From positions 23,039,501 to 23,103,500 of the forward strand of contig NC_088916.1 of NCBI RefSeq assembly GCF_963576675.1: 64,000 nt of DNA, in the 5' to 3' direction. This DNA is from Euphorbia lathyris. Taxonomy: Eukaryota > Streptophyta > Magnoliopsida > Malpighiales > Euphorbiaceae. The position numbers and the translations under genes were made by a program. Of the stretch, positions 190 through 39,670 are shown one piece after another (the first letter of the stretch is position 1; each line of letters opens with the position of its first letter). The notes beneath the pieces were generated by a model that saw only the letters and a program-made list of their open reading frames with translations, was not told the DNA's origin and did not search any database.

Positions 190-191
190 AG

Positions 192-203
192 TGGTATCAG
201 AGC
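192..203 (+). other. C1 primer-binding site (initiator Met tRNA type)
   Basis: TGGTATCAGAGC, two bases after the LTR terminus, is the classic plant copia primer site complementary to the 3' end of initiator methionine tRNA. The same 12-mer is present in C2 on the other strand. Confidence 0.95.
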
Positions 204-251
204 TTAAAAGCTCACCGAGCAAGATATAACTATCTTGAGCTGATCCCCACA

Positions 252-1951: not shown

Positions 1952-1959
1952 TTATATTG

Positions 1960-1968
1960 CAGGTAAGC
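1960..1968 (+). promoter_or_regulatory. Splice-donor-like site at the gag-pol junction
   Basis: CAG/GTAAGC lies nine bases after the gag stop. C2 has CAG/GTGAGC at the aligned place (complement of 37849-37857). Some plant copia elements are known to splice here to make a short gag RNA; a role in this family is inference. Confidence 0.4.
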
Positions 1969-1989
1969 CTGAGGTGTGCTGAGAAGTAA

Positions 1990-4900: not shown

Positions 4901-5084
4901 CAGCAGGATGAAGCACGTCAGCATAAGACATCACTTCATCAGAGATCATGTACTCAAGGGAGAGATCAAGCTGACCTATGTCCCAATGGATGAGCAGCTT
5001 GCTGATATCTTCACAAAGCCACTGGCTCGTAAGCAATTCAACATACTTAGAGAAGGCATTGGTATGTTTAATCCTCTTCAATAA
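1990..5084 (+). pseudogene. pol: C1 pol: protease, integrase, reverse transcriptase, RNase H (broken)
   Basis: Copia-order polyprotein. Aspartic protease motif DSACSRHM lies at about 2005-2030; the GAG-pre-integrase HHCC zinc-finger region is near 2390-2510; the integrase core runs about 2560-2900 with the D..D..E residues (DLFG, DNGG, VVERKN). The reverse transcriptase starts near 3690, with [15 protein letters not shown] and the YVDD catalytic box near 4135-4149; RNase H starts near 4620 and the frame ends at TAA 5084. Breaks: TAA 1987-1989 at the head, TAG 2794-2796, a 1-nt deletion near 3112, then TAG 3261, TAA 3375, TAG 3672 and TAA 3774. Cannot make a full Pol. Confidence 0.93.
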
Positions 5085-5582
5085 ATTCCAAGTATAATAT
5101 GTAATATATGCATGCTGAGTTGATTACCATGCTGAGTGATTTATGCTAAATCAATGTCTATTACATGCTGAGTAGATACTCACACTGAGTGGTTATCTTA
5201 AGCTGAGTTACTGAGCACACGAATAATTCCTTTGCGTAGAACTGATTACTCAGAACATTAAACGTTTAGAATTCTTAGTGCTGAGTAAAAGATCCGTTGT
5301 GGAATTAATACTAGCACGCGCATTAAGTAGCCTCTAGGATGACGTAAGCGTCATCATTAGTAATAGCACGCGCCGTTTCTCAAAATTAATGTCAGTAATA
5401 ACTGACTTTCGACGGTTCAAATACCCACCGTTCCATCCAACCTATCAAGTCATCATTCATCGTCTATAAATAGTGAACGTTTTCTCATTATTCACTCTCT
5501 ACGCTTGAAATTCGCACCCAAACCTTCATTCTCTCTAAACTTCTGAAATTCAAATCTTCTTAAAGAAACTCTCAAGAACACC
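5085..5582 (+). promoter_or_regulatory. C1 spacer with internal promoter-like region
   Basis: About 500 noncoding bases between pol and the extra ORF. The first half is crowded with CTGAGT/ACTCAG words. A palindromic TGACG pair (TGACGTAAGCGTCA) lies at 5340-5353, flanked by two copies of AGCACGCGC. A TATA box, TATAAATAG, sits at 5465-5473, about 118 bases before the ATG at 5583. C2 has the same arrangement, with TATA at complement 34333-34341 and TGACGTAAGCGCAA at complement 34451-34464. This looks like a separate promoter for the downstream ORF; activity is inferred. Confidence 0.6.
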
Positions 5583-8471: not shown

Positions 8472-8558
8472 TTTTTTTTTGTTGTGTGATCTTGCTTACT
8501 TGCTTATGTTGTGTTGTGTGCTAAATATCAATATAAACGTATCTTCAATCAACCTTGT
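8472..8558 (+). other. C1 3' untranslated start and E1 target site
   Basis: Short noncoding stretch after the extra ORF. The last five bases, CTTGT (8554-8558), are repeated at 27695-27699 and form the target-site duplication of E1. Confidence 0.85.
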
Positions 8559-10706
8559 TGTAGACACTGAGTCGGAGGACCTGTGACGAAAACCTGAAAA
8601 CAAGACGGTTGAAGTGATTGATTCCGGAAGTTTTGAAAAACAAAAAAATAGCGTATTTTATTTAATTTATTCTATAGTTTTTATTCATTAGTCATTTATT
8701 TATTTTGTCACATTTTATTTAATTAGCGTATTTATTTAATTTTCGTTTCGTGTTAAATAAAATTCGGTTTTGTTTTAAAATAAAAAACCTCGTTTTGATG
8801 TCCCAATACGAACCGTGATCCGATAAAAGGTAGTTCGGGTATCGAAAACGTTGTAATTACAAGTTTTTAATTTAAAAGGAATTTCCAAATAATGTTTTGA
8901 AATAAAAAACGTCGTTTAGGAATTTTCGTTTTCGACTATGATCCATCTTTGGTAGTTCGGAAACCCAAAACGATTGAATTAGATTTAATTTAAAGCTTTT
9001 GAATAAATCTGGAAACATTTAGGAGTGCTGCTGTAATTTACCTATTCTGTCACTAAATGCTGTTTACCGACGGACTTTCCGTCGGTAAATCTGCCAAAAT
9101 GTAAAAAATGCCATTTCAGTCCCTTTTTCTTAACTTTTAAACTTTTAATCCTTAGTACATACATATAAATATGTAATATATGTTTTTCAAATTATTTTAG
9201 AACTTTAGCATATATAATCATTCTAGAATATTTGTATATTATTATTCCATTTTACAATATAAGTATAAGTATATATATGTATTCCTTTTTATTAATTTGG
9301 ATTATGTTTTAAATGTTAGTTATTTGGTATTTTGAGAAATAATTAATATATATTAGCATATGGTATTTTTGGTATTTAAAACTATAGTAGTTATGTATAT
9401 GTATAGTTTTTGGAACATTTGGGTTGTTTTAGTGATTATTGAATAAAATTATTTTTGGATAAGAATTATTTTCTTAGTTATAGGATTTACTTATTATTTT
9501 CACATTTTCAAAGTATAGATATATTGTACCTATTATTTTTATATATACATATAGCTTCTTTTGTATTAACTCTTATTTTATATTCTATTTTTGATTTAAA
9601 TATATATACGTATGTACAAATTATTTTCTTTACCCTTTGAGCCCATTCTTGGGTCCATATTTCAAATGTGCTTTATTTAAGTGTAAATATTAGTTAAAAT
9701 AAGCGTATTGTTGTAATTATAACAATTAGAGAGTCCATTAAATAAGTGGGGAAAATAAATCACAAAAAGAGAGTTTTCAATTGAATTATTTAAACTAATG
9801 AGTTTTTTTTTCTAATGTAAATAAATAGAGTCATTCTTGTTAATATTCCAAATCGTCTTCAAAACACCACGTTTTAAAACCTTAATCCGTTCCAAAGGCG
9901 GATTAAAGGATCATTGTAATTAAAATCGTTTTCTTTGCAAATAATAGATTTTTGGAATCATTTTCTTAAAGGATTTGTACAAAATGAAATTGACTTGTAT
10001 GTTTAACCACGTTTTCTTATTAAAAGGTTCTTTATCTCGAACGTTTTCAAATACTCGAGTCGTTCCAACGGCGATTCGGGTAAGCTTCATCAAACAAGGT
10101 TTTAAAACGCTCCTAAATCGTTCCAACGGCGATTAAGGTGCGAACCATGTAAATAAAACTCGTTTTGGGGAAATAAGTTAGTGTAGAATAAGCACACAAC
10201 ATAACATTTAAATACGGTTGTAAATAAATTATTTCTTTCTTCCCTCTCTGTGTATGTATAAACATAAATGGGTGATTCTTTACTGAGGTGGCTTTTCAAT
10301 ATCATATGCTCAAAATGGTTTCTAAAAAGAGAAAGAAAAGGGTTTCAAATGAATTTTAAACTTAAAGAAGTATACGATTAGTCCGTTATCGCCTAACATG
10401 CTGAGTAGGAGGCCGGTGGTTCATAACCGGGCGATGTCGGGGTGCCTAGTAGCCTTTCTCCGGAAAGGAGCTAGCCTTCTCGGCTCGTACCTAAGTTTCC
10501 CGAACCCACACCGGTCTCCCGTAAGGGATCGGTGTTCATTTTCCCATTCGTGGGTGGCGACTCTTCCATATCTCCGAGCTCCGGTCCTGCCGAGCAGCTT
10601 GATTCCACGATTGGTTGCTTTCGGCGCCAATCACCGCTTACGTCGCCATGAGGTTGTCCACCCCCCGGTCCACCCGGGAGATTAGGCCGCGGCACCTCAT
10701 CTAACA
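8559..10706 (+). repeat. E1 5' LTR (2148 bp, internally deleted)
   Basis: Starts TGTAGACACTGAG, ends CTAACA. Compared with the 3' LTR it lacks about 0.82 kb; the junction is at about 8650, after the A-run, and corresponds to roughly 24829-25645 in the 3' copy. The lost part contains the GC-rich palindrome array and the TATA box. The remainder is nearly identical to the 3' LTR. Short ORFs inside are not credible genes. Confidence 0.95.
9063..9089 (+). other. Conserved LTR hairpin
   Basis: Perfect 12-bp inverted repeat: arms TTTACCGACGGA and TCCGTCGGTAAA, loop CTT. Present also at 26051-26077 in the 3' LTR and at 51983-52009 in E2, where the loop is ATT but the arms are unchanged. Confidence 0.8.
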
Positions 10707-12650
10707 AGTGGCGACTCTGCTGGGGAAGCGAGAAATTTGATTCCGGAAGGCGTGTACTAAGCCCTTAACGGGGACGGATCGTTTTACTTCTTTTCGTATG
10801 CATTCATATGCATTATTGCAAACCCTTTGGGTAATTTCCGCGAAACCTCTAGCGAGAGTCCATTCGTCGCTCGAAAGAGGCTAGCGTAAGTTCCCCCTTA
10901 CAGTAAGGCACCAGAGGGTCCCCATCCATTCGTTAGGGGCGAATCTGTGCGGTCCTGTGAGGTCCCGCGGTCAGCCGTGTCAGCATATAGTAGCCTTAGA
11001 AGTTTCCATAGGATTACCCGTTACTATTTTTGATGTGATAAATGAATCAGTTCGTGTTTTCAAACCGCCATGATACGTATCTAATCCTAAAGTATGTAAA
11101 GAAAATGGGACGATGTGTTAATATATACTTATGAATCGACATACTAATTACCCTAAAAAATATCGAAACGATTTGAACTAAAGACGACTTAGTCATCTCA
11201 TATGAATGAACATGTGCGACCCGCCTTGTTCCTTTCGGTGTCCCGACGAAGGCACATATTCAGGAAATGCGTTATGACGTAAGCACGTATTAGTATGAAT
11301 CGGTTTGGTATTAAGGATAATTACATCTCGATACAAAAGACTATATTAACAGTAGCCGTCATTCACATTCTTTAAATAAATTGGGATAAAACGAGATCAA
11401 GATGAAACGAAAATGAAGAACATTTCTGTCCTGAACGACCCTGTCATAACGTGAAAAGTTTCGCACAAGTAGCCCGTCCCTTCCGAATGAAAGACGAGCT
11501 TTTACGTTATGCCTCGTGTCGTTCTTAAGAGAAATGGATGTGTCCGTACAGATGACTAAGAAAACAAAGAAGAGAAAAATGAACTAAACGACCAAAATCA
11601 TTCCGAATCTACGATATATATCAATACCGAGGGTAGTTAAAGAAAATAAACCAATGTCATTGAATACGTGCCTCGGACGAGTGTATACCCCGTTTAAAAT
11701 CTCGAAGCCGAATTAAGCCAAACCATATAATTGCGCCATATGGACGAGACTGCGGGTTTTGACTAACGACTCGATCATTTCGACCGTTACCAAAACTGCA
11801 AGAAATATGGCCCGATGTACGTGTTTGCTTAATTCGTGCCTAAAGGAAAGAGAACGGTGATGTCCTCGCTTTGAATAAACATGCGATTCAACGAAACGTT
11901 GATTTTCTATAACCACACTAAGATGATATATCCCGTAGGATTGGGAAGAACAACGAACTGTTGCTAGCCGAAAGGTTACCGTGCGCTCAAAATAAGGCTC
12001 GCCATCTTTTCACGTAGCTAAAATGAGCAAACGGATCCTCGACGCTAAGAACAAACGCGTTACGCGATGAGTCCGTTCCCTAAAATAAAATCCAAAAGTG
12101 ATTCCATCACTAAATGAACACATGGTTATGTCTCTCGATAGATCCAAAAGATCCCGTTGTAATCCAAAAATCGAGACACAAACTCGCGCGAACAAAAGGG
12201 AACGAGTCATTGACGATAACGAACGATTGGACTAGAAGAATAACTCGTACCCCGTCTAAAAACTGAGATGCGCTCAAAGGGAGTCAAAACCCGAACTAAT
12301 GCGTCTCACGAAAGGACGAAAGACGAGTTATTCCGAAAGGACAATCCAACTTGGTCGATTTCTTAGTCACTGAACGTTGATACGTCAAAACGAACTGTAT
12401 TGTCTGATGGATGATTTACTTTCCCGCAATAATCGACGGCATCACGCGTCCCCTGGACCGCAATGTGAGCCCCAAACGAAAATCCTAGGAAAGAGACCTG
12501 GACCAACGAGTGTGTGGAGGAATAAGGGTGGAAGAGAGATGTTGTGATACGTGTAAATAGAACTAACGTTTGTTCTTCTTATCTTATAATCGTAAATAAA
12601 TAAGCGCACACACCACGAATCATGCATATAAAAATCATGCATACATACTA
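10707..12650 (+). other. E1 untranslated leader
   Basis: About 1.9 kb between LTR and gag with no believable ORF. It aligns along its length with the E2 leader (53529-55453). A stem near the primer site (10846-10880; arms CCTCT/AGAGG and AGCG/CGCT) is kept in E2 and could be a packaging or dimerization element, by position only. Confidence 0.7.
10709..10726 (+). other. E1 primer-binding site (tRNA-Arg type)
   Basis: TGGCGACTCTGCTGGGGA, two bases after the LTR end. This resembles the tRNA-Arg primer site I associate with Ogre elements. The identical site occurs in E2 at 53531-53548. Confidence 0.85.
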
Positions 12651-14113
12651 ATGGATACCGTTCGCGCAGACGTCATCATTAAGCGGTTGTGGTTTCGCGA
12701 GAGTGATCGGCTTGTCAGACAGTTTGATCAGCTACGAGTAGACAGTTCAGAATCAGTAGTTGTGGCTTCTGAATCATCTTCGTCTGGGTATACTCAGTCT
12801 TCCGTCAGTATGTCTGCGACCGACGAGAAAGTGGCTGAATTGGAAAACTCTGTGAACAATATCAATGATCAGCTGGCCGCAATCTTGGCCCAGCTAGCTG
12901 AGTTAGCACTGAAGGACAACAAGAGTGGTAGTAAGCGTGCTGAGAATGAGGTGAACGATGGCCCTCGCTTTGGGAATGAGGAGGATTATCAGGATTATAT
13001 CCGAAAACAGCTGGAAAAGGAGAAAGCTAAGGAAGAGGAGTGGAAGCAACACATCACACAGGAAGTGCAGGACTTGCGTGGAGGAAGTTCCGGAAATCAG
13101 GACTTCTATAACTTGAAGAATTGTTTGTCGGCAACAGCTTTGCCTCTGAAATTTCGTCTCCCCGATATGAAAAAGTTCGATGGAACTGGAGATCCCACCG
13201 CTCACATGAATCAGTATGTTGCTGTGATGAAGCACACGATCCTGACTGAGGATCAAGTCCTGGGGCTGTTTAACACCTATCTAGAGGGGGCTGCCCTCAC
13301 ATGGTTTCATGCATTGCCGATGGTAACAAAGAGGGATTGGAAGGAATTAGCAAAGTCGTTCATCGCTCAGTATAGCTTTAACACCATGCTGGAGGTCACT
13401 TTGAAAGAGTTAGAGAGCACTAAGCAACATGCTGGGGAATCCTTTTCCGATTTTGTGAAAAGATGGAGGGCTAAGGCCGCAGTGATGAAACAAAAGCCGC
13501 TCGAGCAGGATCAGATCCGAATGGTGGTTGGCAACACGTTGTCGTATATCAAGAATGAGTTGCGGTATATGCCATTTACTGATTTCAATCAGATGTATAG
13601 TTGTGCCTTGACTGTTGAAGGGGATGGAGAGCCGAAGAAAGCTTATACCAAATGGACGAAGTCTGGATATAGTGCCGGAGGGCCTAGCGCGAGTACGGAA
13701 TCCGCAGCAGTGAAAGTGGTTGATCTTAATGCTATTGAAAAGAGGCGGTTCGCCAAGTTCGATCAGACCTATGCTAAAGTTTTCGAGCGTCTGCAGAAAA
13801 AGGGATTGTTGAAAGCCCTTACCCCGTATAACAAGGCTCAACCTACTCCGCAGATTCAGGCTAGAGGGTACTGTGAGTTCCACAGCAGTTATGGACATAC
13901 GATTGAGAATTGCGAGAGGCTGAAACACGAAATCCAAGATTTGATTGAGGAGAAGAAGATAGCTGATCCTTCGTCAGCAAACCCTTCCGTTAGGCGCAAT
14001 CCATTGCCTAATCATAGGGTGAGCGTGATCGGAGCTGGTTTGACAGAAACTGTAGTGATGGAATCCTTTGAGGAAGATGTAGAGGAGTTGTTGGACTCCG
14101 TCGAAAAAGCAAT
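12651..14113 (+). CDS. gag: E1 Gag, first part (coiled coil + capsid module A + zinc-like motif)
   Basis: Starts with ATG at 12651, the same start as in E2. An N-terminal helical/coiled-coil region (residues about 55-150) is followed by a retrotransposon-gag capsid domain, residues about 170-325. Module A has both the N-terminal half (G..DP..H, then L.G.AL.W, then W..L...F...Y) and the C-terminal half (F..F..RWR...). A Cys/His cluster (YCEFH...GH....C) follows near 13865-13910. The frame runs on to a stop at 14261, but real homology leaves it at about 14108. There E1 is one base shorter than E2 in an A-run, so the rest of Gag is in the next frame (from about 14114). E2 shows the two parts belong to one protein. 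Confidence 0.9.
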
Positions 14114-17100
14114 GTGGGAAAAGGTCTGTATGTGTCCTTCTTGGGTGAGGAACGAGAGGATGAACCGATGGAGGAAGGGTCAGATGGTGGAGCACCGTAT
14201 GATGAGGATAGTGCTGAAGAGACCGGAGAAGGGTCGTCTCAGACTATTGTGCCAGATTTGAGTTTGTTTAGCGGAGGAAGAGATCCCGAGGTGCACTTGC
14301 GTGAATATATGCACAACATGTTTATTGAATCCTTCGGAGTAGATGAGATTGCTCAGTGGTTTCATCATTCGCTGGTAGGCGAGCCTTTGGAATGGTTCCA
14401 CTCATTACCCGACTCTTGCAAGCATGATTGGGATCAATTATCAGATTTATTCTTAGAAAAGTACCAAAGAGCCGAGGACAGGGCCGCAGAGCGCTTCGCA
14501 ATGCAGATTGGACCTATCAAGCGTCCGCTACCGAGAGTTAGCAAGTATAATGGCAATAAGGATCCTATGGAACACCTTCATTTTTACTTGTCGGCTATGG
14601 CACCCTTGGGTTTTAAAGAAGAAGAGATCACTAGCTTGTTTTGTAATTCGTTGATGGGTGAACCGTTAATGTGGTACATGTCGCTGCCGATGTATGTTAA
14701 GACCGATTGGGCCGCAATGACGAAAAGATTTATCAAGGAGTATACAGTATGGATGCTGGCAGAGCAAACCCTTGACTCCCCATCTTACCAAACACCTGAT
14801 GCGGTGTTAGCAATGCCTAGGTATGGTGGGTACCAGGATCCTGTGGAGCATGCGAGGATATTTCGCAATCATATGTATGACGCTGGATTTCCACAGTGTG
14901 AGTTGCATGAACATTTTCCGGAAACCTTGATGGGTGAAGCCTTATTGTGGCATCAGGGTCTATCAGAGGAGGAGATGGGTCATTGGATACCGCTCCGAAG
15001 TGCCTTTGTGGCGAGATATGAAATGTATATTCCATGGACGGGATCCCTGGATGATCTGGATAGGATCAGGCAGTTCCCCGAGGAACCATTTGTGGACTAT
15101 GCTAGGAGATGGAGGCACCGTTATGAGCAGTGTCATGAAACAATGAGCGATAAGGTGCAGCTTATGTGCATACAACGAGATGCTATTCCGTTGGCCGCCG
15201 GAAGGATGAGCAGAGTGTCCCTCCGGGATTATGATGAGTTGATAGGTTGGGCCTTGTATGGATCGGCGGATCCCTTTTACTTAAATCCGAATGTTCCTCA
15301 CGTCATGGATTTAATGGTTGTGGACATTTGGGAGAGTTCCTCGGACGAGGAGGATGCCAATCGAAGGGTTCCTATTAACATTTGGGACGAATCGGATGAT
15401 GAGCCGGAAATTGCGGTAATGACGAGATCAGGTCGTGTGGCCGAGGGAAAGGCACCAATGGTAGAGACTGAGATTGGAGAAGGGTCGGCTCCTAAGCCCG
15501 ATGACCAAGTTCTTGAGCAGTTGAAGAAGATGCAAGCTAAGTCTACGGTCTGGGAAGTTTTATGCCATTCTAAGTACCATCGTGAGAACCTGATGATGGA
15601 GTTGCAGAATTTGGTTATTTCCACCGATACTGAGCCGGCAGCGCTAGTAGGGGCAATTATGGCTCGAAAGAAGACTGAGATCACATTTACCGACGAGGAT
15701 CTCCCAGAAGAGGGGAAGGCTCATAATAAGACATTGTATATCCGAGCGGAAATTAACGGGAAGAAGACTAGCTGTGTGATGGTCGATGATGGATCGGCCA
15801 TTAATGTTTGTCCGTTGAAACTCTTGTCGAAGTTGGGAGTGGAAAGAGGAGACTTGACGGCCTCTGAAACAGTGATTAGAGCATATGACGACAGCCGTAG
15901 GCACATTGAAGGAGTCTTCAAGGCCAAGTTGAAAGTGGGGCCGCACGAGGAAGAAACTGAGTTCACGGTGTTGGATATCCCGGTAACTTTTGCTGTGCTA
16001 TTGGGACGCCCTTGGTTCCATAAGTTAGGAGGTGTGCCCTCCACGCTCCACCAAATGATTAAGTTCCCCTTCGGGGAGGAGATAGTAACAATTAGAGCTG
16101 AGAAATTGAGCTCGGTGGCAGCACTGGGAATTGAGCCTCAACTTTTCTCCGGATTCCAAGTCTCCGGGATTTACGAGTCGAGCATGACCACCGATGTGGT
16201 GAAAATGATGAAGGGAGGTTTCATTCCGGGAATGGGTTTAGGAGCATACCATCAGGGGCTGCCAGAGTTTCCGGACTTTAAGAGTCAGAAAACCCGGAGA
16301 GGTTTGGGATATGATCAGGGGAGTCCGTCCAATGCGAGTGCTGAAGGAAAAGTAGGCTTGAGGAAGTATTTTGTGAGCGAGGGGCATGGGAAGGCATATT
16401 CAGGAACCCCCGAGGCATGGACTAGCACGGAAGGGAAGATTCTGCCAGGGTTCGAAATCTTCAATGATATTACCGACTGGGGCAAAGGAAAGGCGAGCTG
16501 CTTTGTCGAGGAGATCATGATGCTGGATTTAAATGCCGAGGAGCAGGTCATCACCATCGAAGCGACTGCGGGAGCGGGAGATGAGCCTAGTACCTCCAAA
16601 ATTCACGAGAAGTCCGAAGGCCCTAATGATGAAAATTGTATTACTGCTTTATTTGAGTCAGATGATGTAATCACCCATGCTATCAATGAAATGAATTCTG
16701 ATTTTGCTTACTTGCTTGATGTCGATCATGATCATTCCATGCATTCTCATTCATATAACATGCCTGCATTTGAAATCAATACAATAGAAATGTCAACTTT
16801 CAATCTTGGTACGGATGAAAATCCTAAACTTATACAAATTGCTCAAGCATTAACTATTGAAGAGAGAAAAGAATTTGAGAGAATAATTAAAAAATACGAA
16901 ATTGTATTCGCTTGGACATACGAAGACATGCCTGGAATTGATCAATCAATCGTAACCCACCGCATTCCAACTTACCCCGAAGTGAAGCCCGTAAAGCAGA
17001 AGCTCCGACGTATGAGACCAGAATGGGCAGATAAGATCAGAGAGGAGGTGAAGAAACAGTTAGAAGCAGGATTCATCGAAGTAATCGACTATCCCCCTTG

Positions 17101-17809
17101 GGTCGCAAATGTGGTGCCCATCGCAAAGAAGGACGGCAAAGTGAGAATGTGCGTTGATTACAGAGATCTTAACAAGGCATGCCCCAAGGATGAGTTCGCA
17201 TTACCTCATATCGACGTATTGATCGACAGCGCAGCGTCAAGTGTATTACACACGAATGTGGACGGTTTCATGGGCTACATGCAAGTTCAGATGGCCGAAA
17301 AGCACAAAGCGAAAACCTCGTTCACAACTGAGTGGGGGACATACTGTTACAGGGTAATGCCGTTTGGTTTGAAAAACGCCGGAGCAACTTACCAGAGAAT
17401 GGCCACAGCACTGTTCCATGATATGATACACAAGGAGGTAGAAGTCTACGTGGATGATATGATGGTCAAATCAGAGACAAGAGAATGGCATTTTGCCGCG
17501 CTCGAGAAGTTTTTGGCCCGAATCGCAGAATTCAAGCTAAGGCTAAACCCGAAGAAGTGCTTTTTCGACATTTCGTTGGGGAAAATCTTAGGCTATGTAA
17601 TCAGAAATAAGGGAATCGAGGTGGATCCTGATAAAGTGAAGGCCATACAGGAGATGCCGGTGCCGAGAAATGAGAAGGAAGTGAGAGGGTTTCTGGGGCA
17701 GGTTCAGTATATCAGTCGGTTCATAGCAAGACTCACCGTAATCTGCGAGCCAATCTTTAAGTTGCTAAGGAAAGACCAACCCGCTGTCTGGAATGATAAG
17801 TGTCAGTAA
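14114..17809 (+). CDS. gag-pol: E1 Gag modules B-D, protease, G-patch and reverse transcriptase
   Basis: Long frame of 1231 residues. Three further capsid-like modules share the spacing G..DP..H...GE.L.W...W...F...Y: B at about 14257-14475, C at 14533-14750 and D at 14812-15035. Only D is followed by a C-terminal half (15045-15260). An aspartic protease (VDDGSA motif near 15783) lies at about 15690-16090, and a G-patch-like glycine motif (GGFIPGMGLG...GLGY) at 16213-16312. The reverse transcriptase runs from about 16830, with YVDD near 17450. The frame ends at TAA 17807-17809 where E2 has CAA, so this is one nonsense change; the downstream frame is in the same phase. The first ATG is not a true start, because E2 reads through from module A. 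Confidence 0.92.
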   Translation: MGKGLYVSFLGEEREDEPMEEGSDGGAPYDEDSAEETGEGSSQTIVPDLSLFSGGRDPEVHLREYMHNMFIESFGVDEIAQWFHHSLVGEPLEWFHSLPDSCKHDWDQLSDLFLEKYQRAEDRAAERFAMQIGPIKRPLPRVSKYNGNKDPMEHLHFYLSAMAPLGFKEEEITSLFCNSLMGEPLMWYMSLPMYVKTDWAAMTKRFIKEYTVWMLAEQTLDSPSYQTPDAVLAMPRYGGYQDPVEHARIFRNHMYDAGFPQCELHEHFPETLMGEALLWHQGLSEEEMGHWIPLRSAFVARYEMYIPWTGSLDDLDRIRQFPEEPFVDYARRWRHRYEQCHETMSDKVQLMCIQRDAIPLAAGRMSRVSLRDYDELIGWALYGSADPFYLNPNVPHVMDLMVVDIWESSSDEEDANRRVPINIWDESDDEPEIAVMTRSGRVAEGKAPMVETEIGEGSAPKPDDQVLEQLKKMQAKSTVWEVLCHSKYHRENLMMELQNLVISTDTEPAALVGAIMARKKTEITFTDEDLPEEGKAHNKTLYIRAEINGKKTSCVMVDDGSAINVCPLKLLSKLGVERGDLTASETVIRAYDDSRRHIEGVFKAKLKVGPHEEETEFTVLDIPVTFAVLLGRPWFHKLGGVPSTLHQMIKFPFGEEIVTIRAEKLSSVAALGIEPQLFSGFQVSGIYESSMTTDVVKMMKGGFIPGMGLGAYHQGLPEFPDFKSQKTRRGLGYDQGSPSNASAEGKVGLRKYFVSEGHGKAYSGTPEAWTSTEGKILPGFEIFNDITDWGKGKASCFVEEIMMLDLNAEEQVITIEATAGAGDEPSTSKIHEKSEGPNDENCITALFESDDVITHAINEMNSDFAYLLDVDHDHSMHSHSYNMPAFEINTIEMSTFNLGTDENPKLIQIAQALTIEERKEFERIIKKYEIVFAWTYEDMPGIDQSIVTHRIPTYPEVKPVKQKLRRMRPEWADKIREEVKKQLEAGFIEVIDYPPWVANVVPIAKKDGKVRMCVDYRDLNKACPKDEFALPHIDVLIDSAASSVLHTNVDGFMGYMQVQMAEKHKAKTSFTTEWGTYCYRVMPFGLKNAGATYQRMATALFHDMIHKEVEVYVDDMMVKSETREWHFAALEKFLARIAEFKLRLNPKKCFFDISLGKILGYVIRNKGIEVDPDKVKAIQEMPVPRNEKEVRGFLGQVQYISRFIARLTVICEPIFKLLRKDQPAVWNDKCQ

Positions 17810-17812
17810 GCT

Positions 17813-20044
17813 TTGGAGAGCGTCCGGAGCTATTTGTCTAATCCGCCAGTGCTGAGACCGCCTAAACTAGGAAAGCCACTTCTCCTCTATGTAGCGATTG
17901 AGGAGCGATCTATTGGGGCAATGTTGGCTCAAGAGGGAGACACCGGCGTGGAGCACGCGGTGTATTATTTGAGTAAGAAGTTCCTGGAGTACGAGCTCAA
18001 GTACAACATGATCGAAAAGACATGTGTGGCAGTAGTATGGTTGATAAAGAAACTGCGACACTATTTCCAATCGTATAAAGTGATCATTATTTCTCGGATG
18101 GACCCCGTGAAGTATCTATACCGAACTCCATCCTTGACGGGGAAGTTAGCCAGATGGTTGTTACTTTTTTCCGAGTTTGACATTGAATATATGACGAAGA
18201 AGGTTATCAAAGGGAGGGCCGTGGCAGAATTTCTGGCCAACCAACCCCTGAATGCAGAGGAAGAAGTGATAAGTTATGATTTCCCCGATGAGCACTTGAA
18301 CGCAATCGAAGTTATACCGTGGAAAATGTTCTTCGACGGAGCAGTTAATTCGAATGGAGCCGGAGTAGGAGTACTACTTACCTCACCGGAAGGAGAAAGG
18401 ATCCCGATGGCCAAGAAGTTATCCTTCCCTCTCACCAATAATATGGCTGAGTATGAAGCGTGCATTTATGGCTTAGAGTCATTAGCGGCACTGGGAGCGT
18501 CATATGTCGAAATCTGGGGGGACTCAAAGTTGATCATTGAACAGGCACAAGGAAACTGGGAGGTAAGAGAAGAAAGACTACGTCCATATCTAGATCAGCT
18601 AGAAGGGTTGGCACAAAGATTCAAGGAATGTCGTTTCTATCATATTCCTCGAGCACAGAACCAGGCGGCGGATGCCTTGGCTACTTTGGTGTCAGTTTGG
18701 GACAACCCCCGGAACCTTGCTTCGAAGCCGTTGGTATTGAGAAGATCTCACAAACCATGTTACGAGGACGTAATGCTGTTAGGGACAGATGAAAAACCAT
18801 GGTATTTCGATATCGTGAACTTTATGAAAGATGGGACATATCCGGCAGAGTCAGAACCTAGGGATCAAGCTGTGATTAGAAGGCTAGCTCGTCAGTTCGT
18901 CATCCACAACGACTTGCTTTACAAAAGGCACGTTGATGGATTACAACTCAGATGCTTGGATGCGGGAGAAGCCCGCGAGGCAATGGAATCAGTACATTCG
19001 GGAATTTGTGGAGCCCATATGGGAGGAGCAGTACTAGCTAAGAAAATTATCAGACAAGGCTTCTATTGGCTCACCATGGAAAGAGATTGTAACGAGTATG
19101 CAAAGAAATGTCACGATTGTCAAATCCACGGCGATTGCAGTCATCTTCCGGCCATGGAACTACATGTGCTAGCACCTATTTGGCCATTCGCTGCCTGGGG
19201 CATTGACATCATCGGCGAAGTAAGGCCTAATGCTTCAAATGGACATAAGTTTATTGCAGTCGCCATCGATTATTTCACCAAATGGGTAGAAGCAGAGTCG
19301 TTTAGCAAACTGGGATCCAAGCAGATGAGAAAGTTCATTGAAAAACACTTGATCACCAGGTTCGGAGTGCCTCATCACATGATCACGGATAACGGAGTCC
19401 AGTTTCAGGGGGAAGTAAGGAATCTTTTTCAAGAATATGGCATTGAACATCACAGGTCTTCTCCATACCGTCCACAGGCTAATGGAACAGTAGAAGCAGC
19501 TAATAAGAACCTTAAGAGGATTCTCGTAAAAACGGTGGAATCACATCGGAATTGGCATGAGCAGCTCCCACTCGCATTATGGGCTTATCGCACGACAATT
19601 AGAACCTCAACTGGGGCAACGCCATTCTCTTTGGTGTATGGAACAGAAGCAGTCTTGCCGATTGAGATCGAAAAGCAATCGTTGAGAATCGCAGTGGAGG
19701 CAGAAATTCCCGAGGCGGAATGGGCGAAGAAGCGATGTGAGCAGTTGGCTCTAGTTGATGAAAAAAGGATGGAAGTGCTTTACCATGTACAGTTATATCA
19801 AAGAAGGATGGCTCGGGCTTTCAATAAAAAAGTCAAGACCAGTCCTATCAAAGAAGGAGATTTGGTGCTGAAACAGATCCGTGTGACGCACACCGACCCG
19901 AGGGGGAAGTTCAGGCCTAACTGGGAAGGACCATTCGTCGTGAAGAAGATACTAAGCAAAGGAGCGGTGAAGTTAACCACAATGGACGGCATGGAATTCT
20001 CCGAACCTACCAACCTGGATATGCTTAAGAAATACTTTTCGTAA
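17813..20044 (+). CDS. pol: E1 RNase H, archaeal-type RNase H and integrase
   Basis: Same phase as the upstream frame, separated only by TAA 17807. Order: the retroviral-type RNase H of the gypsy core (to about 18250); a second RNase H with FFDGA, NMAEYEA, GDSKLII and NQAADALA, the D-E-D-D set typical of archaeal-type RNase H in Tat elements (about 18310-18700); integrase HHCC zinc finger (about 18990-19130); and catalytic core with DIIG, TDNG and the E in GTVEAANK (about 19190-19510), then a C-terminal tail. No chromodomain is visible. Ends at TAA 20042-20044. Confidence 0.93.
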   Translation: MESVRSYLSNPPVLRPPKLGKPLLLYVAIEERSIGAMLAQEGDTGVEHAVYYLSKKFLEYELKYNMIEKTCVAVVWLIKKLRHYFQSYKVIIISRMDPVKYLYRTPSLTGKLARWLLLFSEFDIEYMTKKVIKGRAVAEFLANQPLNAEEEVISYDFPDEHLNAIEVIPWKMFFDGAVNSNGAGVGVLLTSPEGERIPMAKKLSFPLTNNMAEYEACIYGLESLAALGASYVEIWGDSKLIIEQAQGNWEVREERLRPYLDQLEGLAQRFKECRFYHIPRAQNQAADALATLVSVWDNPRNLASKPLVLRRSHKPCYEDVMLLGTDEKPWYFDIVNFMKDGTYPAESEPRDQAVIRRLARQFVIHNDLLYKRHVDGLQLRCLDAGEAREAMESVHSGICGAHMGGAVLAKKIIRQGFYWLTMERDCNEYAKKCHDCQIHGDCSHLPAMELHVLAPIWPFAAWGIDIIGEVRPNASNGHKFIAVAIDYFTKWVEAESFSKLGSKQMRKFIEKHLITRFGVPHHMITDNGVQFQGEVRNLFQEYGIEHHRSSPYRPQANGTVEAANKNLKRILVKTVESHRNWHEQLPLALWAYRTTIRTSTGATPFSLVYGTEAVLPIEIEKQSLRIAVEAEIPEAEWAKKRCEQLALVDEKRMEVLYHVQLYQRRMARAFNKKVKTSPIKEGDLVLKQIRVTHTDPRGKFRPNWEGPFVVKKILSKGAVKLTTMDGMEFSEPTNLDMLKKYFS

Positions 20045-20555
20045 AAAAAAAAAAAAAAAAAAAAAAAAAAGAAAAATAAAGAAAAATTCCTGATAGGTTG
20101 AAAACCCGTAAAGGGCGACCTATGCAACAATAAGGGAAATCCCAATGGGTGAAAACCCGAAAGGGCACTCATTTAAAAATTCCGGGATAGTAAAAGGAGA
20201 GGAGAAAAATCGTCGGGATCCGAAAACCGAAAGGCGGGTCCTGGTAACAATAGTTATAACTTGAGCAATTACAAAAACAATGTATAAGAGACTAAGTATT
20301 TCTGTTGTTTGTAAATAAATAGAGGCATGAATATATTTGACGAGAATGATTGGAATCATTATAATCTACCGAATGCATGGTAATATGAATCACGGGTTAT
20401 ACATTTCTTGTCCTACTTTTCACAAGAAGCCTACCTACTATCCACCCCACTCCCTATACATCAGCTATACATCGGAGAAACCCTAATAAAAGCTACAAAG
20501 CAACAATGAAAGCTACAAAGCAATAATGAAAGCTACAAAGCAATACATAACGAGC
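20045..20555 (+). other. E1 post-pol region: A-tract and three stem-loops
   Basis: A run of about 28 A directly follows the pol stop. Three stem-loops share an inner motif, AAAACCCG(T)AAAGGG or a shorter form, but have different outer stems that still pair: 20093-20123 (ATAGGTTG/CGACCTAT), 20144-20173 (AATGGGTG/CACTCATT) and 20215-20242 (GGATCCG/CGGGTCC), with G-U pairs allowed. Three copies of an AATGAAAGCTACAAAGCAA-type unit lie at about 20496-20545, just past the end of the antisense gene. Confidence 0.6.
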
Positions 20556-23500
20556 CTAATACGGAGGAAAGTCCCAATAGTTCTCAAAATCTCTCAGGTG
20601 TGATGCCCGCTCCGCAGATAGTGCCTCCTCGGCAGCACGCGCTCTATCATTAGAAACTCTCGCTCTCTCATCAAAGGCGCGTGCTCTCTCATCAGCAGCT
20701 CGTGCTCTCTCCTCTGCAGCAAGGCGCCTGATCAACTCATCACGTGCCCTCTCCTCGACGGCAAGGCGACCCTCAGTCTCCCGTCGCATCATCCCTGACC
20801 AGTGGTCATTTCTCTCTTGATACACATGACCAACTCGGGCATCAGCTTCCTACACTAGCTCGCTCTGTCTCCGCTCGTGGGCATGCAGATCACTCTATAG
20901 AAAAAGAAAAAAAGAACAGATAAAAGGCAGCATAGGCAAAAACATAAATCATACATACATGCATACATTTCACTACACTAAAGTACAGTAATGATACATA
21001 CCAGGTGATCGGTGCAGCGCAAGCTGAGGCGGTCTCGGAGATAACCAGACAGCCCCACGTAATCCGTACAAGTCTCTCTCGTGGTCAGAGAAGCGTCCGA
21101 GGGATCAAACGGGACCCTCGAGGAGAAGATAGGAGGGGCCGCCTCAAATCCCGCGTAAGGTGCCCCGGACTCGTCATAGCAGATCGTAGCATAATCTCTC
21201 CCATAGTCTGGTATAGGCACGCCTAGGGAAGACCTCTCCGGTCGGGCAGCGCTGGAGGACTCGCCAACATAGTGGGGCAGCTCGCACACTGGCGTTTGAG
21301 CCCGAGTGCCATCGAAGAAATCAGATAAGTGGGCACTTCTCCAGGATCCCTCCTGCAAACAAAACACACCATAAAACCTCTGAACATCTCATGAATAAAA
21401 GGGGTAAAATAAAAAGGGAATGGAATCACTTACCGGGACCTCCTTCTGACCAAAGACTGCCGCGACAGCCTCCCTCGAAAATACATCCGCCATCGGATCC
21501 ACCTCCATCGCTGCCGCCGGGGCATCCCTCGCGCTCACCAGAGTAGACAAGTAAGGCTCACGGCCCCCGGCGTGAATCCATACCGCTCTACCAACATACC
21601 GACGGGTCAGGTCCCGACGAATGACCGATAGTGGCAGGGTCCGCACCGCGAACATAGAGACGGGGATCTCGCCCGGCGTCCAGTGAGCGTCCCTAACTCC
21701 GGTGATGCCTCGATCCCCTAAATACCACGCCCGCACGTAGGGGCCGGTGAGCATACACTGCTGCTCCTGGATCATCGATACATATGTATAACCAGGGCCG
21801 AAGTCGAGGTCGTCCCATCGGAACTTAATCTAAAAAATGCACAAAGAGAAAGTCAGAAAGATTCAAACAAAAAAACCAGGCATGATTAGGCAAAATCTAC
21901 CTGTGTGAGGGTCAGCGAGTCGATCTGATCCAGAAGCCGCGACACTGTCCGACTCCTCTCGGCGCTCAAGTCAAAATCCCTCCACTGAGTCATGAAAGGC
22001 GGCCTCAGTACTCTCGGTCGAGATCGAGATCGGCTGGGAAGGATGTGTCTCTCATACGCCCACACCTGCGGTAAAAACGAGGACTAGGAGTGTGAAAAAT
22101 GCGAAGAAGATAAGACGGATAAGTCAAGAAGACGTCACGTACCAGCAGAGCAAAGGTATAACCACCGAAGTCCTTGCGCTTCCGGCAAGTCAGATCCAAA
22201 AACTTGTAAAGAAAGGCTAAGCCTGCCCCCGCCCAATCGTAGGAAGCCGCTGCATCCAAAACACTGAGCGCCTGAATGAGGCCCGCATGTACCTTCCCGC
22301 CCTTCGTGCGGAAAATCGTCTCACTCAGAGCATATACCAAGAAGCTACGAACCGCCAAGTCGGTATCATCAGTCTCGCAAAAATCTCGTCTACTCAAGAG
22401 GCTCGCGGTGGAAACAAACTTCACCGGAGCAGACTTGGCGCATAGGCGAACTCCCGGTCCAATCAAGGCAGCGAGCCTAGCAGGGTCAACCCGCGGTCGT
22501 ATCATACCAAAATGAAAAGGGACGGGAGTGTTGCTCCCTCGCAATCCGATCAATAGCGAAAAATCTCGAGGCGAGATAGTCATCTCCCCAAAGGAAAGGT
22601 GGAAGGTGTGGGTCGAATCAACCCACCGCTCACACAAGGCCCGTAGGCCAAAAGGATCGCATACCCCGTTGGTGCGGGGCAGCGCTGCAATAAAGGGCTC
22701 GAAGCCCAACTCATGCACGCGGGCTCTCGCCGCGGCGTCTAGCCTATCATACCACGAATGAACCTCGGCGGTGGTCCCCGAAATCTCAATGAACTAAAAA
22801 GGAACAAGATAAGAAAATTTAAATACAGCTCCTAAAGCATGCAAGCAATTGATAAGAACGCGTTAAGACTAGGTATTCTTTCATTTTCTAACCTAGAGAC
22901 ATCCGGTCAGTTAGGACCAATTTTCTGTAAAAATCTCTCCGGTAGGGTCATTCACGTAAGGTTTAGTCAATTCTTTGATCCACCCTCGTCTGCGGTGACG
23001 AGGAGCATAGATTAGGCTTTACTATTCACGTGCATTAGTTAAGTTTTTACTATTCACGTTTTCACTATTCACGTGCACTATTCACGTTTTTACTATTCAC
23101 GTGCATTAACTAAGTTTTTACTATTCACGTTTTTACTATTCACGTGCACTATTCACGTTTTTACTATCCACGCGCACTATTCACGTTTTCACTATTCACG
23201 TGCACTATTCACGTTTCTTAATATTCACGTGCATTAGCTAAGTCTTTACTATTCATGTTTTTACTATTCATTTGCACTATTCACGTTTTCACTATTCACG
23301 TCTTCACTATTCACGTCGTTTTTACTGTTAGCATGCATAAATTCGTAGTGTCACTATTCACATGCATATAGCGCGCATTCTTACAAAAATAAACAGGTGT
23401 TACTTGTAAATAAAGGAATTCACGTTTTCTAGCTAAAGTCCTCTAAGGCAGTCTAAGGGTTAGCATGCAAATCATGTTCGTATAGGAATGCTAAAGCCTA

Positions 23501-23619
23501 GAGTTCGAATCGAATAAAAGTGAGAAATTACTTACCTCGTTGCAGCATGTCCTGCTCAAATGCGTAGTAGGGTCGTGAAAGGTATCCACTCTATCCAGGT
23601 TTACGTAAACCTCGTCCAT
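20556..23619 (-). pseudogene. Antisense six-exon plant mobile domain (PMD/MAIN-like) gene inside E1
   Basis: Minus-strand exons: 23619-23536, 22793-22143, 22065-21901, 21829-21434, 21352-21002 and 20894-20556. All five introns are GT-AG, every exon is a multiple of three, and the total is about 661 residues. Exon 2 carries the plant mobile domain signature (WVDSTHTFHLSFGEMTISP, then LLIGL); exon 3 starts VWAYERH, also typical. The C terminus is an Arg/Glu/Ala-rich coiled coil with ERARA repeats. One stop (TAG, complement 20850-20852) interrupts exon 6; a different acceptor could not remove it simply. The start ATG is the first in frame after a stop. PMD proteins are plant nuclear factors of the MAIN/MAIL1 type, often linked to transposons; the role here is unknown. 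Confidence 0.87.
22794..23535 (-). repeat. Intron 1 of the antisense gene with ACTATTCACG repeats
   Basis: A 742-bp intron. Between about 23020 and 23330 it is a degenerate array of the short unit ACTATTCACGT (read on +), with TTTT and GCA spacers and a higher-order pattern of alternating TTTTT and GCATTAGTTAAG linkers. Intron ends are GTAAGT and TTTTTAG on the minus strand. Confidence 0.75.
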
Positions 23620-23730
23620 GCCTCTAGTGCCATCTCATTCATCTAAATCCATCCCGAGAATAATCCAAATTGAAGTCTAGTGAGAGAAAGAGGAGAGAGA
23701 AGGTGTGGGGTTGAAATGAAACCCCACCAC

Positions 23731-23739
23731 CTTATATAG
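23731..23739 (-). promoter_or_regulatory. TATA box of the antisense gene
   Basis: CTATATAAG-type box on the minus strand, about 115 bases upstream of the ATG at 23619. It is followed by a pyrimidine-rich leader with a five-codon upstream ORF. Position and sequence suit a plant RNA polymerase II promoter; activity is inferred. Confidence 0.55.
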
Positions 23740-24093
23740 GAAAAGGGAATGACATTCCCGTAAATAGTGAAAAAAGTACGATTTGACATAAAGGTAAAAA
23801 GTAAATAATTAATTCCTAAGTGCACAGACCTCCGATTTGCAGTCCGTTTCAGTCTGCATTTCTCTCAGATAGCAACCAATACTGTCAAGATATAAACTCC
23901 AGACAACAGCCAATTTTTACAGAACAGGACACCAGTCAAAGTACAGACGACAGTCAACAGAAAAACAATCGTTAGTCGATATCATTCCAGACCAAAACAC
24001 GTTCCCATTAAACCTCCGAGACACTAGCTCCAGACAATGGTGTTTTAAAAGAATCCAAAATCGTTAGAAAGAACTTTTCTGCTCTTTAGCCAT
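23740..24093. other. E1 noncoding spacer
   Basis: No ORF or RNA gene recognised. Presumably the upstream region of the antisense gene. Short CAGAC/CAGTC-rich words recur but no clean repeat is seen. Confidence 0.5.
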
Positions 24094-24474
24094 CTTACCT
24101 ACGGTTCACGACCGAGGTAGCTTTTTAGCCATCTTACCTACGGTTCACGACCGAGGTAGCTTTTTAGCCATCTTACCTACGGTTCACGACCGAGGTAGCT
24201 TTTTAGCCATCTTACCTACGGTTCACGACCGAGGTAGCTTTTTAGCCATCTTACCTACGGTTCACGACCGAGGTAGCTTTTTAGCCATCTTACCTACGGT
24301 TCACGACCGAGGTAGCTTTTTAGCCATCTTACCGACGGTTCACGACCGAGGTAGCTTTTTAGCCATCTTACCTACGGTTCACGACCGAGGTAGCTTTTTA
24401 GCCATCTTACCTACGGTTCACGACCGAGGTAGCTTTTTAGCCATCTTACCTACGGTCCACGACCGAGGTTGCTT
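24094..24474 (+). repeat. Ten-copy 39-bp tandem repeat in the E1 3' region
   Basis: Ten head-to-tail copies of a 39-bp unit containing TTTTTAGCCATCTTACC and CACGACCGAGGTAG. Copies are nearly identical (one GACGG variant, and the last copy diverges). No unique spacers, so not CRISPR-like. Such arrays in 3' regions of Tat/Ogre elements are a recognised source of satellite DNA. Confidence 0.95.
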
Positions 24475-24727
24475 TCGAGCCATTCTTACCCATAGTCAAC
24501 GTACGCTAGATTCCGAGAGAAAAATATCCACCGACGGCCGATTCAGAGGCAAGGATGGAAGGAATCAGAGAACGACACCAGAGCGCGCAGCGCGAAGGTC
24601 AGGTATGCTCCCTCCTACTCTTTACGTGTCTTTTACTTTTATATGTTTTACATTGCATGTGTTACGTTAGCAAAAAAACGTTTTCAAAACACACACATCA
24701 CTGTCAAAATAGAAAAGTAGGGGCAAC
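24475..24727 (+). other. E1 3' end with polypurine tract
   Basis: Noncoding. The purine-rich AGAAAAGTAGGGGCAA at about 24711-24726 abuts the 3' LTR start and is the likely plus-strand primer. Confidence 0.7.
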
Positions 24728-25154
24728 TGTAGACACTGAGTCGGAGGACCTGTGACGAAAACCTGAAAACAAGACGGTTGAAGTGATTGATTCCGGAAGT
24801 TTTGAAAAACAAAAAAATATATAAAGAATAATAAGCGAAGGAAAATTAGCGGCACGACGCGGGTGCATAGCGGCATCCGGCACGCGGACGACAATAGTCG
24901 AACGCCCGCTCGGCGGCGCGGGACGTGCGCTCGGCGTCCGTCGGACGCACCGCAAGTGGCACGCTCTCGACGTCCGAGCAATGCCCGGGTCCGGTGGCAC
25001 GGGGCGCGCTCTCGTGGGCCGCTGAGCGCACGTGCCCGGTAGCGCGAAGCGCGCGTTCGGCGGTCGCGACGTGTGAGCGTCCAGCGGCGCGGGACGCGCG
25101 CTCGACGGCCGCGGGGTGCGCACGCCCGATGGCTCGAGGCACGCCCCGAGGGTC

Positions 25155-25350
25155 GTCGGGCGGGCGCCCAACCACGTCGGGCGAACGCCCGACGGAGGTT
25201 GGGCGCGGGCGCCCAACCTAGCGTTGGGCGCTCGCCCAACGTCGTTGGGCGGCCGCCCAACAAGGTTGGGCGGTAGCCCAACACTAGGTTGGGCGGCCGC
25301 CCAACCCCAATGGGCGACGCCCAATTTCTTTTGGGCGTCGCCCATTGGTC
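25155..25350 (+). promoter_or_regulatory. U3 palindrome array
   Basis: At least seven consecutive 14-22-bp palindromes of the form GTTGGGCG-n-CGCCCAAC with different centres (AA, GG, CT, GGCC, GGTA and others), ending about 20 bases before the TATA box. A similar but not identical array is in the E2 5' LTR (about 51060-51300). Likely protein-binding sites or a structured CpG-rich enhancer; function inferred. Confidence 0.75.
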
Positions 25351-25366
25351 CGGGGACCCGTTTGCC

Positions 25367-25374
25367 TATAAAAG
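25367..25374 (+). promoter_or_regulatory. E1 3' LTR TATA box
   Basis: TATAAAAG within GCC/GGC arms of an imperfect inverted repeat. Conserved in E2 at 51322. The equivalent is deleted from the E1 5' LTR. Confidence 0.8.
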
Positions 25375-27694
25375 GCACAGATCCCCATGCAAAAAAAAAG
25401 AAAGGAGAAAGGTGGGAGGAATCCTTAGAGAGCTTCTCACACTAGATATTTTTCTAGAGAGAGGAAGTTGATTTTTTTAGGAAAAAACATTTTTTTTCCT
25501 AAAAATTGAAAATCTCTAAATTTCCTAAGTTCAATTTTTACTAAATTTTTTATAAAAAACGGGAGCTCGTGGTTCGTGGAATCAGTCGGCTTCAACTGTC
25601 AGATACCGAATTCAAGGTATTATCCGAGGACTAGACTCTTTATTTTATTTAATTTATTCTATAGTTTTTATTCATTTAGTCATTTATTTATTTTGTCACA
25701 TTTTATTTAATTAGCGTATTTATTTAATTTTCGTTTCGTGTTAAATAAAATTCGGTTTTGTTTTAAAATAAAAAATCTCGTTTTGATGTCCCAATACGAA
25801 CCGTGATCCGATAAAAGGTAGTTCGGGTATCGAAAACGTTGTAATTACAAGTTTTTAATTTAAAAGGAATTTCCAAATAATGTTTTGAAATAAAAAACGT
25901 CGTTTAGGAATTTTCGTTTTCGACTATGATCCATCTTTGGTAGTTCGGAAACCCAAAACGATTGAATTAGATTTAATTTAAAGCTTTTGAATAAATCTGG
26001 AAACATTTAGGAGTGCTGCTGTAATTTACCTATTCTGTCACTAAATGCTGTTTACCGACGGACTTTCCGTCGGTAAATCTGCCAAAATGTAAAAAATGCC
26101 ATTTCAGTCCCTTTTTCTTAACTTTTAAACTTTTAATCCTTAGTACATACATATAAATATGTAATATATGTTTTTCAAATTATTTTAGAACTTTAGCATA
26201 TATAATCATTCTAGAATATTTGTATATTATTATTCCATTTTACAATATAAGTATAAGTATATATATGTATTCCTTTTTATTAATTTGGATTATGTTTTAA
26301 ATGTTAGTTATTTGGTATTTTGAGAAATAATTAATATATATTAGCATATGGTATTTTTGGTATTTAAAACTATAGTAGTTATGTATATGTATAGTTTTTG
26401 GAACATTTGGGTTGTTTTAGTGATTATTGAATAAAATTATTTTTGGATAAGAATTATTTTCTTAGTTATAGGATTTACTTATTATTTTCACATTTTCAAA
26501 GTATAGATATATTGTACCTATTATTTTTATATATACATATAGCTTCTTTTGTATTAACTCTTATTTTATATTCTATTTTTGATTTAAATATATATACGTA
26601 TGTACAAATTATTTTCTTTACCCTTTAAGCCCATTCTTGGGTCCATATTTCAAATGGGCTTTATTTAAGTGTAAATATTAGTTAAAATAAGCGTATTGTT
26701 GTAATTATAACAATTAGAGAGTCCATTAAATAAGTGGGGAAAATAAATCACAAAAAGAGAGTTTTCAATTGAATTATTTAAACTAATGAGTTTTTTTTTC
26801 TAATGTAAATAAATAGAGTCATTCTTGTTAATATTCCAAATCGTCTTCAAAACACCACGTTTTAAAACCTTAATCCGTTCCAAAGGCGGATTAAAGGATC
26901 ATTGTAATTAAAATCGTTTTCTTTGCAAATAATAGATTTTTGGAATCATTTTCTTAAAGGATTTGTACAAAATGAAATTGACTTGTATGTTTAACCACGT
27001 TTTCTTATTAAAAGGTTCTTTATCTCGAACGTTTTCAAATACTCGAGTCGTTCCAACGGCGATTCGGGTAAGCTTCATCAAACAAGGTTTTAAAACGCTC
27101 CTAAATCGTTCCAACGGCGATTAAGGTGCGAACCATGTAAATAAAACTCGTTTTGGGGAAATAAGTTAGTGTAGAATAAACACACAACATAACATTTAAA
27201 TACGGTTGTAAATAAATCATTTCTTTCTTCCCTCTCTGTGTATGTATAAACATAAATGGGTGATTCTTTACTGAGGTGGCTTTTCAATATCATATGCTCA
27301 AAATGGTTTCTAAAAAGAGAAAGAAAAGGGTTTCAAATGAATTTTAAACTTAAAGAAGTATACGATTAGTCCGTTATCGCCTAACATGCTGAGTAGGAGG
27401 CCGGTGGTTCATAACCGGGCGATGTCGGGGTGCCTAGTAGCCTTTCTCCGGAAAGGAGCTAGCCTTCTCGGCTCGTACCTAAGTTTTCCGAACCCACACC
27501 GGTCTCCCGCAAGGGATCGGTGTTCATTTTCCCATTCGTGGGTGGCGACTCTTCCATATCTCCGAGCTCCGGTCCTGCCGAGCAGCTTGATTCCACGATT
27601 GGTTGCTTTCGGCGCCAATCACCGCTTACGTCGCCATGAGGTTGTCCACCCCCCGGTCCGCCCGGGAGATTAGGCCGCGGCACCTCGTCTAACA

Positions 27695-39609: not shown

Positions 39610-39658
39610 TTACAGGGATCAGCTCAAGATAGTTTTATCTTGAATAGTGAGCTACTGT

Positions 39659-39670
39659 GCTCTGATACCA
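39659..39670 (-). other. C2 primer-binding site (initiator Met tRNA type)
   Basis: GCTCTGATACCA on +, the complement of TGGTATCAGAGC, two bases inside the 5' LTR. Confidence 0.95.

Follow-up and report, generated by a model that had tools for sequence, protein, structure and literature searches.

The window analysed here, a stretch of 64,000 nucleotides from Euphorbia lathyris (assembly GCF_963576675.1, contig NC_088916.1, positions 23,039,501 to 23,103,500), contains two Ogre-type Tat Ty3/gypsy retrotransposons, E1 and E2, which encode four capsid N-terminal domains (NTDs). Module A is a normal Gag capsid with its own nucleocapsid zinc knuckle, and modules B, C and D form a separate second block. 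It is almost certain that this block has the anatomy NTD-NTD-(NTD-CTD), in which CTD denotes the C-terminal domain, and that it is located between the nucleocapsid and the protease. The described retroelement capsid plan consists of one NTD and one CTD, a plan from which three more NTDs and a second CTD depart, and the B-C-D capsid block is what appears new in the element.

The four modules of E1 are encoded on the plus strand (positions are those of the window). Module A (13146..13622) and module D (14792..15259) comprise both NTD and CTD, and module B (14237..14515) and module C (14516..14791) comprise the NTD only. An earlier note on this DNA had described four motif sets with nearly identical internal spacing, and all of them were recovered where it had placed them: G..DP..H at 13182, 14273, 14552 and 14828, L.G[EA]...W at 13281, 14372, 14651 and 14927, and W......F...Y at 13338, 14429, 14708 and 14984. 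Its further statement that a C-terminal half is present in A and D and missing from B and C was borne out as well, with F.D[YF].[RK]RWR occurring in A (13443) and D (15089) only. A, B, C and D can be aligned free of gaps over ~77 residues, and 10 positions are invariant over all aligned modules and relatives. In addition, both lobes are retained in module D, as are the E, W, R and Q residues found at invariant CTD positions in A and the relatives.

The homology of the modules was evaluated with seven of them, namely A, B, C and D of E1 and B, C and D of E2. Local-alignment (Smith-Waterman) scores beat 300/300 shuffles in 21/21 pairs. BLASTP between different modules gave E values from 7e-21 to 1e-6, excepting the E1 A-D pair, for which there was only a short match (E 7.1) and a Smith-Waterman score of 115 that still exceeded 300/300 shuffles. 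The profile comparison proposed in the earlier note gave a clear result, with hhalign values of 98.0% for A-B, 98.8% for A-C, 98.9% for A-D (147 columns), 98.7% for B-C, 96.2% for B-D and 97.1% for C-D, whereas none of 24 comparisons with controls (three control segments, three column-shuffled profiles) exceeded 2.0%. Chance or low complexity as the source of the repeats was ruled out by the shuffle tests and these controls. The family PF03732, also proposed for comparison, was matched in part: four of the seven single modules scored above the cut-off (A, 1.3e-08; E1 B, 4.1e-06; E1 D, 2.5e-08; E2 D, 4e-09), and both C modules and E2 B scored below it. Because these three fall short, a routine Pfam scan of single modules misses part of the block.

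The description of all four modules as tandem in the earlier note needs refining, since the knuckle (CX2HX4HX4C, 13872..13913, plus strand, pattern match) and a linker separate A from B. The pattern search found a knuckle only with A; the B-C-D block, devoid of one, lies in the ~503 residues that separate the knuckle of E1 from the TRSGR preceding the protease. E2 repeats the module order of E1 at a constant offset of +42767, and a single plus-strand open reading frame (ORF; 56092..58326, PF03732 in 3 stretches) carries the remaining part of A, the knuckle, the linker, B (57004..57282), C (57283..57558) and D (57559..58026). E2 B and C were assigned by motifs and alignment. The repetition of order claimed for E2 thus stands, including the one frame across the linker and B-D, but the strict G..DP..H pattern is found in A and B only, with deviations in C and D; the other two patterns are present in B, C and D. 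An assembly error as the origin of B-C-D was ruled out, as two diverged copies carry the block.

A search for Gag relatives retrieved 28 proteins, 19 from Camellia, 3 from Euphorbia lathyris, 2 from Rhododendron and 4 further ones. The closest are those of Euphorbia lathyris, with P0121 sharing 149/156 capsid residues with E1 and P0122 sharing 125/155; the Euphorbia lathyris proteins end before B and are hence uninformative on the block. No second capsid module was found in the 28 relatives, of which just three, all from Camellia (P0126, P0128 and P0142), span the stretch from the knuckle to TRSGR before the protease, so that absence elsewhere is lightly sampled. One NTD was detected in 23 of them (E <=1e-5) and none in the other five, in agreement with the view of the earlier note that a single capsid domain is typical. 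The knuckle-to-TRSGR spacers of P0126, P0128 and P0142 (347, 319 and 302 residues) are acidic and have no capsid module. Diverged modules hidden in the spacers of relatives were ruled out with 10 post-knuckle stretches, for which hhalign gave at most 0.4% and the best hmmsearch E was 0.7.

Wider searches gave no further copy. A protein search with the ORF running from B to the reverse transcriptase (RT) returned 0/2490 candidates at E 0.001, a weak negative given that the host's own copy of the block was also missed there, and viral contigs searched with B-D and with RT contained no relative. No report of repeated capsid domains in a plant element was found by title or opening of the abstract in the open-access literature, a coverage outside which subscription papers such as the original Ogre papers fall. 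A reference survey of elements discarded those with duplicated domains. For animals, two papers carry the wordings 'two gag domains' in Drosophila (PMC7755394) and 'tandem gag' in insects (PMC13172572).

Structure prediction points to a capsid fold of the modules. Module C was modelled as a helical bundle with a predicted local distance difference test score (pLDDT) of 85, and its best PDB matches are the Arc capsid and the Arc N-lobe. The 50 entries that VIA lists for C all belong to the capsids of retroelements or retroviruses or to proteins derived from such capsids. Because these matches mix N- and C-lobes, the fold of C alone does not separate NTD from CTD, which the alignment to A does. 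The model of the whole block shows helices for both lobes of D. A whole-block fold search gave TM values by query of 0.15-0.23 among the 50 rows listed, and a single-sequence PDB search yielded weak matches only (best E 0.11). According to PMC6525542, the capsid proteins of Ty3 and HIV consist of an NTD and a CTD with the same core fold, the packing of the CTD is conserved and the NTD faces host factors. A and D share the NTD-CTD composition with Ty3, Arc and retroviral capsids, and the modelled C resembles Arc lobes; whereas one NTD and one CTD make up the plan described for those capsids, four NTDs and two CTDs are present here per coding region.

Comparison of the two elements indicates that the block is constrained and may have a history of its own. 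Outside the block, E1 and E2 share long stretches of 86-87% DNA identity; within it, the alignable parts reach 72-76%. B-C-D can be compared over 341 codons with no gap, and the ratio of nonsynonymous to synonymous differences per site (pN/pS) is 0.33 in B, 0.20 in C and 0.31 in D, as against 0.06-0.15 in the rest of gag. Constraint on the protein, relaxed but clear, is therefore very probable as judged from these ratios. Fourfold-degenerate sites differ at 45/73 in B-C-D (B 8/18, C 15/20, D 22/35), 54/153 in the rest of gag and 66/184 in pol; the contrasts of the block with gag and with pol each gave p 0.0003, and the random expectation is 0.74. Correspondingly, pS is 0.456 in the rest of gag, 0.785 in the block and 0.427 in pol, and the difference between gag and block was reached in 0/5000 permutations. 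Because silent change is raised too, faster protein change alone is insufficient as an explanation, and the block probably traces back, through recombination, to an older common ancestor than its flanks.

The earlier note had derived the additional modules from an internal duplication of the capsid. In its simple form, with the element copying its own A, this origin is not supported by the place of the block behind the knuckle or by the identities observed. Over the NTD, B, C and D share 26-34% of residues with their own A and 26-32% with Camellia P0124 and Rhododendron P0129, whose A domains are ~40% identical to that of E1. Since the block resembles the A of Camellia and Rhododendron as much as its own A, it is hardly a recent copy of the latter. 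From these identities we infer that the block parted from A about when those gag lineages parted or earlier, unless a faster rate misleads. An old duplication or a capture from another gag lineage would fit at least as well as simple internal duplication. In the capsid tree all A domains fall on one side of B, C and D (94/93), a split that does not decide between duplication and capture. The search of relatives suggested in the earlier note as a means of dating the duplication found no block in the 28 proteins, three of which span the region in question, and dating failed, the tree being unrooted with long branches.

For the function of the block, a role as a second capsid subunit is favoured. 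B-C-D would be made as part of Gag-Pro-Pol, from which the protease may release it, and would be incorporated into particles as a second capsid subunit present in smaller amounts. With the CTD of D docked into the CTD lattice of A, the three linked NTDs would fill or span outer NTD positions, which could tune capsomer contacts, particle size or host-factor binding. Given the anatomy of the block, its product, comprising three NTDs of which one belongs to a complete capsid, could meet the capsid protein (CA) of module A by both kinds of contact. Recombination has probably passed the block from one related element to another. Such co-assembly is plausible, though we place it a little short of an even chance, and the explanation as a whole, as drawn from sequence comparison and models, seems evenly balanced between right and wrong. 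If kept by purifying selection, the block would amount to a natural experiment on how capsid lattices tolerate or exploit extra domains.

Several observations weigh against this explanation. The structure prediction called for in the earlier note, successful for module C, left the domain arrangement of the whole block unreliable, with a predicted TM score (pTM) of 0.34. The pN/pS values in the block are ~3 to 5 times higher than in A, indicating weaker constraint than in the main capsid. Only two copies of the block have been seen, those of E1 and E2, and both elements have frame breaks. Compared with A alone, the block is not clearly raised at fourfold sites (45/73 vs 22/47, p 0.13), and fourfold divergence in B alone (8/18) does not differ from that in gag; a regional rise in divergence, already starting in A, is a possible alternative to an older block. 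Other comparisons with A alone do show an excess in the block, in pS (0.785 vs 0.550, reached in 3/5000 permutations) and in silent codon changes (108/215 vs 46/132, p 0.005). A deeper history of the block is thus borne out when gag and pol are taken whole, only in part when A is the sole reference, and not when B is considered by itself.

Among the alternatives, a built-in assembly limiter or interference factor survives best, although it is somewhat unlikely. By analogy with known inhibitors, NTDs lacking a CTD would bind the NTDs of CA and poison the lattices of the element itself or of its competitors. B and C lack a CTD, no knuckle is found in the block, and hhalign shows that B-C-D is homologous to the element's own CA. 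According to PMC11684626, RTL8, a truncated capsid without zinc finger, binds the capsid NTD of PEG10 and is linked to fewer released particles, and the isolated PEG10 NTD likewise raised intracellular PEG10. The block would share with RTL8 the character of a truncated capsid homologous to the one it meets, and it is possibly a self-encoded counterpart of RTL8- or Fv1-like restriction. However, RTL8 is a separate host gene (PMC11684626), whereas B-C-D is inside the element's own polyprotein rather than a separate product and includes D, a full two-lobed capsid unlike the truncated inhibitors; moreover, pN/pS values of 0.20-0.33 give no sign of positive selection. The truncated Gag restriction factor of Ty1 is also a self-encoded capsid fragment (PMC11684626); unlike B-C-D, which is mostly NTD and a diverged second copy, it is a CTD fragment made from an internal start in gag. 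An exchangeable version, in which a diverged NTD array is swapped among Ogre elements and sets which Gag particles assemble, is unlikely; if true, self-limitation or retrotransposon competition would be built into the polyprotein.

It is quite unlikely that B-C-D acts as a multivalent array that binds peptides or host factors through the N-lobe groove and tethers cofactors with no role in the shell. Solved complexes of the Arc N-lobe hold stargazin, CaMKII and GKAP peptides, C finds some of its best matches in such peptide complexes, and it is the NTD that the capsid turns towards the host (PMC6525542). Nevertheless, function does not follow from a common fold, capsid C-terminal lobes are matched by C almost equally well, and the CTD in D is left unexplained. 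Finally, a relic, that is, a second gag gained by recombination between elements and tolerated as a functionless spacer, would agree with the frame breaks of E1 and E2 and with the acidic, module-free spacers of 302-347 residues in the three Camellia relatives, which suggest that the position tolerates varied sequence, but it is very unlikely considering that neutral sequence would hardly stay open and aligned over 341 gap-free codons with highly diverged silent sites and pN/pS of 0.20-0.33, and that 10 positions are invariant in all modules and relatives aligned. The second capsid subunit is favoured over the limiter, the binding array and the relic.

The assignment to Tat/Ogre made in the earlier note is supported by the additional RNase H, the plant mobile domain (PMD) ORF and a tree. 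An additional RNase H (aRH) between RNase H (RH) and integrase (INT) is a mark of Ogre and Retand, and a PMD extra ORF is present in 57% of Ogre (PMC6317226). E1 shows the order PF17917, PF13456, PF00665, a feature common to Retand, and carries PMD in an antisense extra ORF (PF10536, 8.8e-20), as Ogre does. The RH-aRH tree was built from E1 and 22 relatives picked from 120 listed (P0071 was left out, being below the length limit), none labelled Ogre by its source. E1 groups with Mercurialis (97/93) and Hevea (100/99) on the side of the pea sequences, and a 100/100 split sets it apart from rice RIRE2, a Retand element according to the table in PMC6317226, and 5 other sequences. E1 thus shares with the Ogre clade the RT-RH-aRH-INT order, the large size and the antisense PMD ORF, and is set apart by the additional three NTDs and one CTD encoded behind the knuckle and ahead of the protease. 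Ogre elements typically, though not in all cases, have an intron between protease and RT. In E1, one frame stays open all the way from B to the end of RT, which neither calls for splicing nor speaks against it. The G-patch was found in 4/120 listed relatives, quinoa, tomato and Nicotiana among them, and in plant Gypsy elements, Hevea included, as reported in PMC9289625; G-patch and PMD are accordingly ordinary for such elements. Like other extra ORFs of plant elements with long terminal repeats (LTRs), namely PMD, TRP28 and Athila ORF-1, the block is added coding capacity retained in lineages, but those are separate ORFs upstream or downstream of gag-pol, whereas B-C-D is capsid-derived and inside gag-pol.

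E1 extends over 19.1 kb on the plus strand (8559..27694), its ends and the flanking 5-bp duplication cttgt (8554-8558 and 27695-27699) being read directly. The 5' LTR (8559..10706) and the 3' LTR (24728..27694) are 99.5% identical over 2053 columns with 9 mismatches, in addition to 92 identical start bases. The 5' LTR is ~820 bp shorter, a stretch of the 3' LTR being missing from it (8651-8653 against 24820-25640). Parts of this stretch match near the E2 5' LTR (51105-51201 and 51374 onwards), and because of these matches a deletion from the E1 5' LTR is suggested. A candidate primer binding site, which in Ogre elements is one for tRNA-Arg, follows directly after the 5' LTR at about 10709. The order within E1 is Gag with A, knuckle, B, C, D, protease-like region, G-patch, RT, RH, aRH, INT and antisense PMD ORF. 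The Gag ORF carrying A (12651..14261, PF03732 1.4e-07), the protease-like region (15743..16015, PF13650, below cut-off), the G-patch between it and RT (16205..16312, PF01585), RT (17120..17596, PF00078), RH (17870..18178, PF17917), aRH (18332..18685, PF13456) and the integrase core (19184..19474, PF00665) are on the plus strand, and the PMD ORF (22005..22718) is on the minus strand. Tandem repeat arrays with steps of ~28 and ~39 bp, judged by self-match offsets, are located between the PMD ORF and the 3' LTR (23018-23316 and 24081-24490).

Two breaks interrupt the coding region of E1. The ORF 12651-14261 ends while the frame of B-D is open from 14072 to 17806, resulting in a frame change between A and B; the latter frame continues through protease and RT, compatible with splicing or none. 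An in-frame stop is located between the RT and RH parts. Because E2 and two annotated Euphorbia lathyris Gag proteins cross the A/B junction in one frame, the break there looks private to E1. A programmed frameshift at this junction was ruled out by the single frame of E2, P0121 and P0122 (as annotated).

E2 spans from about 51 kb to beyond the end of the window. The first part of its Gag, with the N-terminus and the start of A, is encoded at 55454..56077 (plus strand), and A is interrupted before 56092. E2 has no stretch matching E1 15419-16424, which holds the protease and the G-patch, the break being at 58186. Ahead of the resumed RT region lies ~3.4 kb of other sequence (58323-61753).

The window also contains two copia-type elements (147-5375 and 34430-39715) in opposite orientation and ~82% identical, of which one has RVT_2 and the other gag_pre-integrs and rve. 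An open frame of 953 residues (31439-34297), lying downstream of the minus-strand copia element and sharing its strand, matches Transposase_32 (PF20167, 9.9e-18), and it is possibly an extra ORF of that element.

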